Source: a virus. From it: DNA of 36,149 nt. The DNA is taken from the IMG/VR virus record IMGVR_UViG_3300031963_000464, positions 1-36,149 of that record, one strand, 5' to 3'. The translations under genes and the position numbers were made by a program. Shown here piece after piece: positions 15,291 through 36,149 of this stretch. Each line of letters starts with the position of its first letter. Position 1 is the first letter of the stretch. The notes beneath the pieces were generated by a model. It was not told the DNA's origin. It ran no database searches and was given only the letters and a program-made list of their open reading frames with translations.

Positions 15291-15297
15291 CTTAAAG

Positions 15298-15331
15298 TAG
15301 TAAACTCTATAAATAGTAGTAGCGTTTACTA
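15298..15331 (+). promoter_or_regulatory. Late promoter TATAAATA inside a perfect 8-bp inverted repeat, before the HNH gene
   Basis: TAGTAAAC (15298-15305) and GTTTACTA (15324-15331) are exact inverted repeats with an 18-base loop holding TATAAATA (15308-15315), the exact T4 late promoter. The second arm ends five bases before the ATG at 15337. RNA read through from the tRNA promoter could fold and hide the ribosome site. RNA started at the late promoter (near 15321) would lack the first arm and stay open. Confidence 0.6.
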
Positions 15332-15336
15332 TTTAA

Positions 15337-15798
15337 ATGAATAGCAGATATACTTATAGCGAACAAGAACTTTATGAAGCGGTGAAAAGTTCTACCAGCA
15401 TTCGTCAAGTTTTAGATAAGTTAAATATTGTTCCTGCGGGTGGAAACTATCAAACTACGAATAGAAGAATACAAAAGTTAGGTATTGACACCTCACATTT
15501 TACTGGACAAGCGTGGAACAAAGGGAAAATTATTGGTCCAAAAAGACATATTAAAGAATACTTAAAGGAAAATTCGATAGTTCAGTCGTTTAAATTAAAA
15601 GGTCGCCTATTAGCAGAAGGTCTCAAACAACACAAGTGCGAGTGCTGTGGTATAACCGAATGGAATGGGCAACCAGCACCAATTGAACTTGACCACATAA
15701 ACGGCAACCATCACGATAATCGTTTAGAAAACCTTCGTATCCTGTGCCCCAACTGTCACGCACAAACGGATACTTATAGGGGTAAGAACAAAAAATAA
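15337..15798 (+). CDS. HNH homing endonuclease
   Basis: A 153-aa protein. The N-terminal ~50 residues contain a helix-turn-helix-like element (SIRQVLDKLNI) and an AWNKGK motif typical of phage homing enzymes. The C-terminal domain is a zinc-finger HNH nuclease: Cys101-x-x-Cys104, IELDHINGN with Asp119-His120, Asn128 in DNRLENLRILCPNCH, Cys137-x-x-Cys140 and His141. Such freestanding enzymes cut alleles lacking the gene and copy themselves in. It sits beside a tRNA cluster, a frequent insertion site. Expression is probably late only, through the structured leader. Confidence 0.85.
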   Translation: MNSRYTYSEQELYEAVKSSTSIRQVLDKLNIVPAGGNYQTTNRRIQKLGIDTSHFTGQAWNKGKIIGPKRHIKEYLKENSIVQSFKLKGRLLAEGLKQHKCECCGITEWNGQPAPIELDHINGNHHDNRLENLRILCPNCHAQTDTYRGKNKK

Positions 15799-28480: not shown

Positions 28481-28868
28481 ACATAATCAAGATGTTGGAT
28501 CAAGTATTGAAAGATCTGACGAGAGAATCAAGGAAACACAAGAAGTTTTTACACCAATGGAACTTGTTGAAAGTATGATTGATGATATTCCAGAACATCT
28601 TCTTCGAGATCCAAAAAGTACATTTATTGATAACTCAGCAGGATCTGGAAATTTTTTAGTAGGATTAAAAAATCGTTTATTAAAATATCACAGTGAAGAT
28701 CATATTCTTGATTATATGCTTTACGCTGTTGAGATGATGGAAGATAATCATAAAGAGTTGTGTCAACGTATCGGTGTTTCCGTTACACATCCCCATTACG
28801 TCTGTGCGAATGCGTTAGAATACGATTACTCATTTGGAGATCCAGTGGGGGTAGAACAGTTCTTCTAG
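28467..28868 (+). CDS. Adenine methyltransferase part B: AdoMet-binding domain
   Basis: A 133-aa protein with the front half of an Eco57I/HsdM-like N6-adenine methyltransferase: motif X-like QEVFTP at 25-30, motif I FIDNSAGSGNFLVGL at 53-67, acidic motif II YAVEMMEDN with Glu89, and a motif III-like ANALEYDYSF at 114-123. In ordinary enzymes NPPY follows within a few residues; here the chain stops at GVEQFF. NPPY lies at the start of the preceding overlapping gene, so the order is permuted and split. A terminator hairpin follows directly. Confidence 0.75.
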   Translation: MAKNKHNQDVGSSIERSDERIKETQEVFTPMELVESMIDDIPEHLLRDPKSTFIDNSAGSGNFLVGLKNRLLKYHSEDHILDYMLYAVEMMEDNHKELCQRIGVSVTHPHYVCANALEYDYSFGDPVGVEQFF

Positions 28869-28875
28869 TGGCACA

Positions 28876-28900
28876 AGGGGTTCCGTTGGACCCCTCTTTC
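28876..28900 (+). terminator. Terminator-like hairpin after the split methyltransferase
   Basis: AGGGG-T-(T)-CC (28877-28885), loop GTT and GGACCCCT (28889-28896) form an 8-bp stem with one bulged T, followed by the pyrimidine tract CTTTCT. It sits directly upstream of, and shares bases with, the next promoter. Confidence 0.55.
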
Positions 28901-28901
28901 T

Positions 28902-28910
28902 GCTATAATA
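28902..28910 (+). promoter_or_regulatory. Extended -10 promoter TGcTATAAT
   Basis: A TG dinucleotide one base before a perfect TATAAT, with no clear -35 box at 17 bases. The expected start near 28917 leaves only about six bases before the helicase ATG at 28923, so the transcript would be almost leaderless. Confidence 0.6.
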
Positions 28911-28922
28911 GTCCCATACGCG

Positions 28923-30158
28923 ATGAGACCTGTGATTCAACTCCGACCTCACCAACAACGTGCTCTGGATGCCCTTGCCAAGTACCTGAAAGGGCAAGTG
29001 ATTATCCCCACTGGCGGCGGCAAGACTAATGTTGCTATCTTTGATGCTATTCGTGAGTTTCTTAAGAATATTCCCCAGACTATCGTGGTCGTGGCACCGC
29101 GCATCCTCCTGGCAGAGCAATTGTCCAGTGAGTTCTTGGAGTTCATCACCAATGCTTCTGTGCTGCACGTTCACAGTGGTGAAACTCATCACCAGAGCAC
29201 CACTCGCCCGAATGAGATTCGTAACTGGGTGGATCAGACTCGTGGTAACAAACTGATCTTCACCACCTACAACTCTCTGCAACGCCTGCAACAGGCAGAC
29301 GTTCACGTCAATACCATTTACTTCGATGAAGCACACAACTCTGTCCAGCGCCATTTCTTCCCTGCCACCGAGCATTTCGCTTCTACTGCTGACCGCTGCT
29401 ATTTCTTCACTGCTACTCCTAAGCATTCTGCTACTATTTCCAAACCTGGGATGAACGACGCTGCCGTTTATGGCAACGTGATCTGCAACGTACCTGCTCC
29501 TGAACTGGTAGAAGGTGGTTTCATTGTTCCTCCTAAGGTTGTTGTGCAGCAGTTTGAGATGCTCTCTAAGGGTCAGATTGTTGCTGATGTTGACTGTGAG
29601 AACCTGATTGCTACCATCGATGCTCAGGAAGTGGAGAAGGTTCTGATTTGTGCAAAAGCAACCAAACAGATTCAGAATCTGGTTTCTCAAACTGATTTCT
29701 GCACTCAACTGGAAGATCGTGGTTTCTCTTGGATGTATATCACCAGCAAGACTGGCGCTATCATCGATGGGCAGAAGGTCAACCGTGAGGTGTTTTTTGA
29801 TACTCTCAGTGCTTGGGGTAAGGATGACTCTAAGAAGTTTGTGGTTCTTCATCACAGCATTCTTTCTGAGGGAATCAATGTTTCTGGTCTGGAAGCAGTT
29901 CTCTTTATGCGTTCGATGGATTACATTGGCGTCTCCCAAACCATCGGTCGTGTGATTCGCCTCCACCAGAGCGACGCAGCGGCACTCAGGAGCGGCGCTA
30001 TTGCCCCTGGAAACCTTTCCGAGTATACTAAGTCCTTTGGGTTGGTTTGCATCCCTGTCTACTCTTCTGTGGGCATCAGCACCGCTAAGAAGGTGCAAGC
30101 GGTGGTGGACACCGTGTTCAACCAAGGTCAACCTGCCATTTCTATTGTAAAGCGATGA
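28923..30158 (+). CDS. SF2 DNA helicase (DEAH), restriction-type
   Basis: A 411-aa protein. Motifs in order: LRPHQQRAL at 7-15, Walker A PTGGGKT at 29-35, VVAPRILLAEQ at 56-66, DEAH at 135-138, TATP at 163-166, and QTIGRVIRLH from 339. This is a complete SF2 ATPase resembling Type I/III restriction or RecQ-UvsW-like translocases, without extra nuclease domains. Codons are GC-leaning (ctg, cgt, acc): 29041-29100 has 28 G+C of 60, against 21 of 60 at 27121-27180 (hand count). The stop shares ATGA with the next start. It could be a processing helicase or the motor of the nuclease/methylase cassette. Confidence 0.85.
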   Translation: MRPVIQLRPHQQRALDALAKYLKGQVIIPTGGGKTNVAIFDAIREFLKNIPQTIVVVAPRILLAEQLSSEFLEFITNASVLHVHSGETHHQSTTRPNEIRNWVDQTRGNKLIFTTYNSLQRLQQADVHVNTIYFDEAHNSVQRHFFPATEHFASTADRCYFFTATPKHSATISKPGMNDAAVYGNVICNVPAPELVEGGFIVPPKVVVQQFEMLSKGQIVADVDCENLIATIDAQEVEKVLICAKATKQIQNLVSQTDFCTQLEDRGFSWMYITSKTGAIIDGQKVNREVFFDTLSAWGKDDSKKFVVLHHSILSEGINVSGLEAVLFMRSMDYIGVSQTIGRVIRLHQSDAAALRSGAIAPGNLSEYTKSFGLVCIPVYSSVGISTAKKVQAVVDTVFNQGQPAISIVKR

Positions 30159-35121: not shown

Positions 35122-35330
35122 CTTACGACGAACTCTACGGTTACATCATCAAGTATGTTGCAGATCCACATACTACCATCACAGAGCACGATCATCGTCG
35201 CACTTGTTTGATCCTTGGTGCATTTATGGAGTTTATTCTTGACTGCCAAGATGAAGGTGTGGATGTGAATAAGATTGATATTACTGACTATGTGAATGAG
35301 AAACTTGATGAGTTGGAGGAAACCAAATGA
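35118..35330 (+). CDS. Small acidic helical protein
   Basis: A 70-aa protein, MTYDELYGYIIKYVADPHTT, with a helix RRTCLILGAFMEFILDCQDE and an acidic end. It overlaps both neighbours by ATGA, consistent with one translationally coupled operon. Confidence 0.6.
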   Translation: MTYDELYGYIIKYVADPHTTITEHDHRRTCLILGAFMEFILDCQDEGVDVNKIDITDYVNEKLDELEETK

Positions 35331-35581
35331 GATTTCGTAACATAGAGTTCCGTTGGAGTAAATGTAACAGCAAGTATGAACTTGTCAAGTGGCATCAAAA
35401 CACAAATAGTGAAACTTGTTATGTGATTGCTTTCTTTGATAAGGACAAAGAGGGTTATGATATGAGAACTATATCTTCAAGATTTTTTGAAGATAAAGAC
35501 GCATTCGTAGTAGGAAAATACGCAATTGAGTTTCTCAACGAAACTTTTGAAATTGAAAGACACGAAGAGGAACTTAAATAA
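35327..35581 (+). CDS. Last small gene of the early cluster
   Basis: An 84-aa protein, MRFRNIEFRWSKCNSKYELV, with alternating strands (SETCYVIAFFDKDKEGYDM) and a helical end (KYAIEFLNETFEIERHEEEL). Function unknown. The operon ends here: a terminator follows within 60 bases. Confidence 0.6.
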   Translation: MRFRNIEFRWSKCNSKYELVKWHQNTNSETCYVIAFFDKDKEGYDMRTISSRFFEDKDAFVVGKYAIEFLNETFEIERHEEELK

Positions 35582-35621
35582 ATAAAGATGCTTATGTGTG
35601 TCGCAACCAGAAGCAAAAATT

Positions 35622-35645
35622 AGGTGCTTTCGGGCACCTTTTCTT
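35622..35645 (+). terminator. Rho-independent terminator of the early gene cluster
   Basis: AGGTGC (35622-35627), loop TTTCGG, GCACCT (35634-35639), followed by a T-rich tail (TTTTCTT). It is the strongest terminator hairpin in this part of the window. Confidence 0.75.
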
Positions 35646-35646
35646 A

Positions 35647-35654
35647 TATAAATA
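35647..35654 (+). promoter_or_regulatory. Late promoter TATAAATA for the right-edge gene
   Basis: An exact T4 late-promoter octamer, 29 bases before the ATG at 35683. The expected start is near 35660, inside the second arm of the surrounding inverted repeat. Confidence 0.7.
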
Positions 35655-35682
35655 GTATTGCGACACAACATAAAGCAGAACT

Positions 35683-36149
35683 ATGGAAACTCCAAAAGAG
35701 TATTACTATACCTATTATTCTTATGAAGAATGGGGTAGAGGATATTTTGGTAGCAGAGGTTGTAAATGCTTACCAGAAGAAGATATAAACTATTTTGGTT
35801 CTTTCTACGATAAAACATTCAAACCAACTCAAAAAATAATACTCAAAAGTGATTATGCTACAAGAGAAGAAGCATATGCTGATGAGATTATTTTACAACA
35901 ATACTACAAAGTAGCAGAAAATCCACATTTTGCTAATAGAGCATATCAAACTTCTACAAAGTTTTATGTTTCAAAAGAACAAGCAAAAAAAGGAGATAAA
36001 ACAAGAAAAAAACTTGGATTGGGATTATATGCTCTTACAGAAGAACAACTAAATCAAAGATGTAAGAAAAGTTTGGAAACAAGAAAAAAACTTGGTTTAG
36101 GTATTTTTGGATTTACACCAGAACAACGACACGAAAATGCTAAAAATGC
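35683..36149 (+). CDS. Homing-endonuclease-like protein (partial), GIY-YIG-type
   Basis: The 155 codons present run off the right edge. The N-terminus, EYYYTYYSYEEWGRGYFGSR, then NYFGSFYDKTFKPTQKIIL and ATREEAYADEIILQQYYKV, follows the pattern of GIY-YIG-related homing enzymes (YFGSR, a second FGS turn, Glu in the REEAYADE helix). Two repeats of TRKKLGLG-x-x-x-x-T-x-EQ (residues ~107-123 and ~133-149) look like nuclease-associated DNA-binding modules. Freestanding homing enzymes are common in T4-like phages. The GIY-YIG assignment is tentative; the homing-enzyme reading is firmer. Confidence 0.6.
   Translation, partial: METPKEYYYTYYSYEEWGRGYFGSRGCKCLPEEDINYFGSFYDKTFKPTQKIILKSDYATREEAYADEIILQQYYKVAENPHFANRAYQTSTKFYVSKEQAKKGDKTRKKLGLGLYALTEEQLNQRCKKSLETRKKLGLGIFGFTPEQRHENAKN

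Follow-up and report, generated by a model that had tools for sequence, protein, structure and literature searches.

Leader RNAs of homing genes and other mobile elements

Homing nucleases must cut rival genomes and spare the phage that hosts them, and their control is understood for a few T4-type genes. In IS10, the antisense RNA-OUT, encoded on the strand opposite to its target, base-pairs with the 5'-terminal part of the transposase mRNA (RNA-IN), a case of multicopy inhibition. In the accessible parts of two reports, a hairpin containing a late promoter silences I-TevI, I-TevII, I-TevIII and SegB of T4, and MobE of phage Aeh1 (PMC2988022, PMC3014915). The cyanophage S-PM2 encodes CfrI, which the available portion of its description presents as an RNA of about 225 nt, antisense to a homing-endonuclease gene and to psbA (PMC2984593).

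We analysed a window of 36,149 nucleotides, i.e., the whole stretch taken from the IMG/VR virus record IMGVR_UViG_3300031963_000464. Most of its closest named relatives are T4-like Synechococcus phages. The leader that precedes the last gene of this window is a real, conserved and mobile regulatory module of homing-type genes. Judging from its sequence, half of the RNA of this cassette probably pairs with and silences the other half.

Anatomy of the leader at the end of the window

A first-pass annotation of the window had reported a perfect 10-bp inverted repeat around a terminator and a late box, 15 nt from the start codon of a homing-like gene. We verified these coordinates. The arms TGTGTCGCAA (35597-35606) and TTGCGACACA (35658-35667) are perfectly complementary, they enclose a terminator-like hairpin (35622-35639, followed by a T-run) and the late box TATAAATA (35647-35654), and 15 nt separate the second arm from the nuclease ATG (35683). 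Taken alone, a perfect 10-bp repeat at this spacing is common by chance: there are four in the window and 0 to 9 in each of ten mononucleotide shuffles. The 10-bp arms are part of a full stem of 18 pairs interrupted by two 1-nt bulges (35589-35606 with 35658-35677), and it is this stem that is rare, its score being matched in only two of 20,000 shuffles of the 3' segment. The folded stretch was also compared with dinucleotide shuffles (z = -4.7), none of 200 being equally stable. The long stem stops 5 nt short of the nuclease ATG.

Two parts of the leader were absent from the first-pass annotation. One is a second late-promoter box, ATAAATA (35578-35584, hereafter promoter A), 4 nt upstream of the 5' arm, whose TAA (35579-35581) terminates the preceding ORF (35327-35581). 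The other is P1, a local hairpin (35589-35615) between 35589-35596 and 35608-35615, which shares the 5' arm with the long stem, so that the two structures exclude each other. All elements lie on the forward (+) strand. Promoter A is followed by the 5' arm (35589-35606), the predicted 5' end of a small RNA that we call RNA-A, at a box-to-start spacing like that of T4. The intrinsic-terminator-like hairpin and its T-run (35622-35645) are the predicted 3' end of RNA-A. Then come promoter B, i.e., the late box at 35647-35654, and the 3' arm (35658-35677), which is complementary to 35589-35606 and is the predicted 5' end of the nuclease mRNA. The ORF of the GIY-YIG-type nuclease (35683-36149) is interrupted by the end of the window; its full form, found in the relative L002, has 257 aa.

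Conservation and covariation of the cassette

We collected 49 loci from viral contigs by protein similarity alone, without selection on the layout of the leader. The layout was found in all 49: promoter A, local hairpin, terminator, promoter B, complementary arm and nuclease gene. The sole exception for box A was L017, whose contig begins within the cassette. A DNA pattern search (terminator tail, box B and start of the 3' arm) gave at least 124 matches, of which at least 87 were distinct, some loci being shared with the previous 49. The 49 loci and the matches listed together gave 109 distinct leaders, excluding duplicates and short or ORF-less cases, and counts on these 109 include pattern-found leaders that were preselected for part of the layout (the promoter-B pattern). 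Terminator and stem were parsed in all of them (12-21 pairs, median 17), and each leader's own stem scored at least 28, a value reached by 0.2% of the shuffled arms. Promoter A was present in 107 of the 109; one of the two exceptions is a contig that starts inside the cassette and the other a sequence cut by the length limit. In a larger set of 112 cassettes, the stem ended 3-5 nt before the ATG in 78.

Some phage contigs encode up to nine cassettes, and the cyanophage isolate S-SRM01 encodes six. Among seven fetched regions of named isolate records encoding relatives, the cassette was present only in S-SRM01 and absent from the other six. A search of Rfam 15 with the window and nine loci gave no RNA family at the gathering score, tRNA alone being matched. 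We found no description of the cassette in the titles and abstract openings of a mostly open-access literature. Three candidate nuclease-free ("solo") cassettes were rejected as mis-called starts, long nuclease ORFs being present on re-reading. In L449 the nuclease ORF is truncated and box A is degenerate. L447 (G014) is a recombinant cassette that lacks box A and has mismatched 5' and 3' arms of different types, with a nuclease ORF of 231 aa.

The arm sequences diverge widely and their complementarity is kept. Among the 112 cassettes, 1,899 of the 1,931 stem cells are in standard pairs (including 84 G-U), a count that leans towards structure because the stems were chosen for pairing; most stem positions show three to six pair types. 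Using a MAFFT alignment of 62 representatives and no supplied structure, RNAalifold picked the same long stem, with double changes at all of its 12 stem pairs. This covariation shows that selection acts on the pairing of the arms. The score of P1 is modest, with a median of 15 (11 when shuffled, with 10% of the shuffles reaching the median), and its 3' strand covaries with its 5' strand, e.g., TGTCT/AGACA, TACCT/AGGTA and TGCTT/AAGCA. MAFFT misaligns the 3' strands of P1, and these pairs were counted by script. Since the 3' strand of P1 changes along with the 5' strand, the latter is held by two partners.

Nuclease families downstream of the cassette

GIY-YIG nucleases are recognised by a conserved Tyr/Gly motif, an Arg and a Glu. 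This signature is present in the ORF downstream of the leader, where Y9, Y21, G23, R25 and E68 are invariant in 23 sequences and have a putative catalytic role. The model predicted from 23 relatives has the GIY-YIG fold: residues 6-89 align to the catalytic domain of I-TevI (Z 6.0, rmsd 2.9, 78 aligned), and the next six structural rows (Z 5.0-5.4) include five matches to the GIY-YIG domain of UvrC (Z 5.0-5.2). Searches of Pfam and NCBIfam with the protein gave no match, nor did a profile search against solved structures, and Foldseek with the model returned GIY-YIG chains only at non-significant E-values of 3-8. One relative (L025) matches the homing endonuclease family phrog_314 and NUMOD3.

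According to motif-based classes, whose assignments we largely presume and which have profile support in some cases, 96 of the 109 leaders listed precede GIY-YIG-like genes (four motif classes, of which class c includes five "other" rows with the class-c motif), 12 belong to HNH genes and the last one to an unassigned ORF of 155 aa. One identical 5' arm sequence was found before four nuclease classes, and identical arms sit before both GIY-YIG and HNH nucleases at different sites. Hence, the leader has been exchanged between nuclease genes, a single control cassette serving GIY-YIG and HNH nucleases alike.

Some of these loci have further peculiarities. The cassette-led ORF of L451 (G014, from about 131) had no match in NCBIfam. 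It carries what we take to be a PD-(D/E)XK-like motif, in which case it would represent a third nuclease superfamily with the cassette. The HNH type with the motif HHIVPKHMGG (L097, L171 and L172) shows a weak match, for the L097 protein, to the HNH part of the IscB profile. A recurrent sequence resembling GACACTT..AACTGG.AC..GG, with a GC-rich hairpin and TATAAT, lies 3' of the nuclease stop codons of L002, L003, L005, L006, L008, L011, L013, L020 and L039. It may be a terminator followed by an early promoter, or the 3' end of the element.

Promoter A belongs to the insertion

Late-type boxes are enriched before the ORFs of S-SRM01, both as ATAAATA (60 vs 2.6 expected) and as CTAAATA (9 vs 0.7 expected). 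The latter is described as a late box of phage Aeh1 in the accessible part of a report that places T4 late boxes at -13 to -6 (PMC1524935). The 5' arm starts 4 nt past box A in 82 of the 112 cassettes, and the 3' arm 4 nt past box B in 72. With boxes positioned as in T4, both transcripts should therefore begin at their arms.

The cassette lies at the 3' end of gene 32 in seven of 80 loci, which allows a comparison with 73 cassette-free gp32 3' ends. Among the latter there was one late box near the stop codon, and it belongs to a truncated cassette remnant (L205, about 1371-1420). The gene next to gp32 is convergent in S-SRM01 and related records, so that no late promoter is expected there. Promoter A thus lies within the insertion, and the comparison ruled it out as a feature of the insertion site. 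We also rejected the idea that the arms are copies of the insertion site, as the same arms occur with different flanks (compared by eye) and before different nucleases. Another gp32 3' end (L217, about 2085-2200) carries a complete cassette without a nuclease gene.

Nuclease genes, ordinary late genes and the 15298 element

The association with homing genes would be spurious if long repeats were equally common at ordinary late promoters. They are not. We surveyed the 59 genes of S-SRM01 with a late box 16-50 nt before the ATG, and stems scoring at least 28 were found at eight of the 15 nuclease-type genes, as assigned from annotation and motif, vs one of the 44 other genes (Fisher P 2e-5); 0.3% of the shuffles reached this score. 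The eight comprise six full cassettes and two simple repeats, and the remaining seven nuclease-type genes have no stem scoring at least 28. The lone ordinary gene with a long late-promoter stem encodes AdoMet decarboxylase (L339 about 45300-45446; about 95202 of the record). Eight late boxes of the window are followed by an ORF: the two that precede homing-type genes score 36 and 24, and the remaining six 10-16.

One of these homing-type genes encodes an HNH protein, whose leader (15292-15337 of the window, P0002-type, relatives L258-L337) has a covarying repeat around a late promoter. Its relatives (80 loci) are mostly found directly behind a tRNA, which is tRNA-Leu in 56 of the 79 checked. 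Leaders of this type exceeded the 95% shuffle level in 41 of 50 distinct cases, and the late box was missing in eight of 80, a count that includes the window and leaves out one relative. Conserved, covarying leader structures are found at both elements, which are of unrelated types. The first-pass annotation had given them the same design. This holds for the principle, in which a homing-type gene is preceded by a hairpin that encloses a late promoter, but the 35597 cassette adds promoter A, the terminator and the alternative hairpin, whereas no terminator and no promoter A were seen by eye at 15298. The latter is a separate, simpler, T4-like design. Elsewhere in the window, two long ORFs of 433 and 411 aa overlap on opposite strands (28830-30131, minus, and 28923-30158, plus).

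A candidate antisense brake

The annotation had attributed these leaders to the silencing of selfish genes early in infection. The principle is known, from the accessible parts of the reports, for T4 I-TevI, I-TevII, I-TevIII and SegB and for MobE of Aeh1, but this reading is incomplete for the 35597 cassette, whose extra parts are unneeded for read-through silencing. Promoter A, the terminator and the alternative hairpin point to an antisense RNA made late, and not only to early silencing. We rather favour the view, with modest confidence, that the leader of this mobile homing-nuclease element is an RNA brake of modular design, moving together with the nuclease gene, in which RNA-A would act in trans and pairing in read-through transcripts would act in cis.

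In such a brake, transcription from late promoter A would begin at the 5' arm and stop some 57 nt later at the terminator, yielding RNA-A. When RNA-A is folded up to box B (about 57 nt), a 5' hairpin is predicted in all 112 cassettes, and its loop would leave part of the arm exposed. Late promoter B would give a nuclease mRNA that starts at the 3' arm and has an otherwise unstructured leader; the promoter-B leader alone has a median predicted energy of -0.3 kcal/mol. RNA-A would be complementary to this mRNA from the very 5' end of the leader up to some 5 nt short of the ATG. It should therefore bind there, first by the loop and then by strand exchange, and we infer that the pairing would block ribosome loading. 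The predicted duplex between RNA-A and the leader has a median of -22.5 kcal/mol, vs -12.4 with the leaders of other cassettes and -9.9 with shuffled leaders. Read-through transcripts, early or late, would carry both arms and form the same duplex in cis, and should for this reason be silent too. Production of the nuclease would then depend solely on promoter-B mRNA molecules left unbound by RNA-A, and these would become rarer as copies of the element rise, given pairing in trans.

One observation does not fit this brake easily: both promoters look late, so that antisense RNA and target would be synthesised at the same time. Another prediction, if RNA-A acts in trans, is that co-resident cassettes should have orthogonal arms, and this was rejected by a permutation on 90 cassettes from 24 records, after removal of four near-duplicate records. 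Co-resident cassettes did not avoid shared arms beyond chance (two same-arm pairs vs 4.0 expected, P 0.23; one vs 1.5 expected in the non-seed subset), and in one genome identical arms are found in two cassettes. The input comprised 100 matches from records with at least two matches (single-match records were excluded), three of which were not parsed by the program and were read by eye, and six from S-SRM01.

The leader could also be purely cis-acting, as in T4. The arms would then pair only in read-through RNA and hide the ribosome-binding region, promoter-B RNA would be translated, and promoter A would be incidental, either the context of a stop codon or a spare late promoter. We consider this possible, if somewhat doubtful. 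It relies on the same principle as I-TevI and SegB of T4 and MobE of Aeh1, as given in the accessible parts of the reports (PMC2988022, PMC3014915), and it agrees with the lack of a trans-incompatibility signal in the co-residence permutation. In 22 of the 112 cassettes the pairing passes the start of promoter-B transcripts and reaches back to box B; the bases near box B are missing from promoter-B mRNA, and thus these cases favour some cis pairing. In 41 of the 104 assessed cassettes the upstream ORF ends with the TAA of box A; this was not found in the other 63. An incidental promoter A also has against it that all 62 representative cassettes have an unchanged TAAATA, that the promoter arrives with the insertion, and that the arm keeps its 4-nt spacing in 82 of the 112 cassettes. 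Finally, the terminator, promoter A and P1 are superfluous for silencing in cis and needed by an RNA acting in trans, which is our argument, an indirect one, for trans action.

The remaining explanations account for fewer of these features. P1 and the long stem share a 5' strand and both covary, as would the ON and OFF folds of a single leader RNA toggled by a protein, an ion or temperature. We find such a switch very unlikely: in every parsed case among the leaders listed, a terminator and a promoter lie between the P1 partner and the 3' arm, so that most RNAs would hold only one half, and there is no conserved ligand-like core and no Rfam match. The repeat might act at the DNA level, as an operator or a homing-site copy bound by the nuclease, and I-TevI does repress itself at an operator over its late promoter, according to the accessible part of the report (PMC2988022). 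Yet the arms differ almost entirely from one cassette to another and keep their complementarity, unlike a sequence-specific operator, and identical arms precede unrelated nucleases, which makes this highly improbable. We give even less credence to RNA-A as a guide RNA that steers the nuclease to DNA. A variable segment within a structured small RNA adjoining a nuclease gene is reminiscent of such guides, as is the IscB-profile match of one HNH type, but this match has 25.8 bits, far under the cutoff of 175 bits. Moreover, GIY-YIG and HNH nucleases located at different sites can have identical arms in front of them, and a partner for the variable part is invariably present in the leader of the nuclease.

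Going further with the RNA brake, we tentatively suggest an exchangeable cassette, shared across homing-nuclease families of cyanophages, in which a late antisense RNA and its target leader in tandem on the same strand would cause multicopy inhibition. With up to nine cassettes per genome, this might amount to a trans-silencing network that also targets incoming elements whose arms match. Should RNA-A act in trans, this would be an unusual same-strand antisense system of a phage mobile element, and the cassettes would offer natural RNA pairs ready for use and a direct way to test control by copy number in homing. The six cassettes of the isolate S-SRM01 make the antisense question testable.

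Comparison with known systems

In the cassette sequence the stem extends up to the ribosome-binding region and a promoter lies between the arms, as in a T4-type leader. The comparison with T4 I-TevI, I-TevII, I-TevIII and SegB and with Aeh1 MobE, based on the accessible parts of their descriptions, gives three likenesses: a homing gene with a stem over its ribosome-binding region, a late promoter inside the hairpin, and late transcripts without the 5' arm, the last being predicted from sequence for the cassette. The cis half of our model would thus resemble what the same sources give as established for T4 homing genes (I-TevI, SegB), and also MobE. In contrast with these leaders as described there, the cassette has an internal terminator, a second late promoter at the 5' arm and an alternative hairpin sharing this arm, and one type of cassette serves both GIY-YIG and HNH genes.

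The trans half, which we infer, has its parallels among antisense RNAs. Like CfrI in the available portion of its description, RNA-A would be an antisense RNA of a T4-like cyanophage touching a homing-endonuclease gene (PMC2984593); unlike CfrI, the predicted RNA-A has about 57 nt and lies on the same strand, upstream of the nuclease. The IS10 pair RNA-OUT/RNA-IN, as far as the descriptions at hand go, resembles the proposed cassette in that a mobile element encodes an antisense RNA directed at the start of its own mRNA. The cassette has sequence signals for the promoter (box A) and the terminator that an IS10-like antisense RNA requires, and the predicted RNA-A is complementary to the 5' end of the nuclease mRNA. 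The arms of the cassette are in tandem on one strand and not on opposite strands as in IS10. Hence, we would say that the cassette, with its predicted RNA-A, may work like the RNA-OUT system, and we do not class it as a member. The cassette appears to be a novel variant on the known leader-hairpin principle, of which the antisense RNA would be the most novel part and a plausible one.
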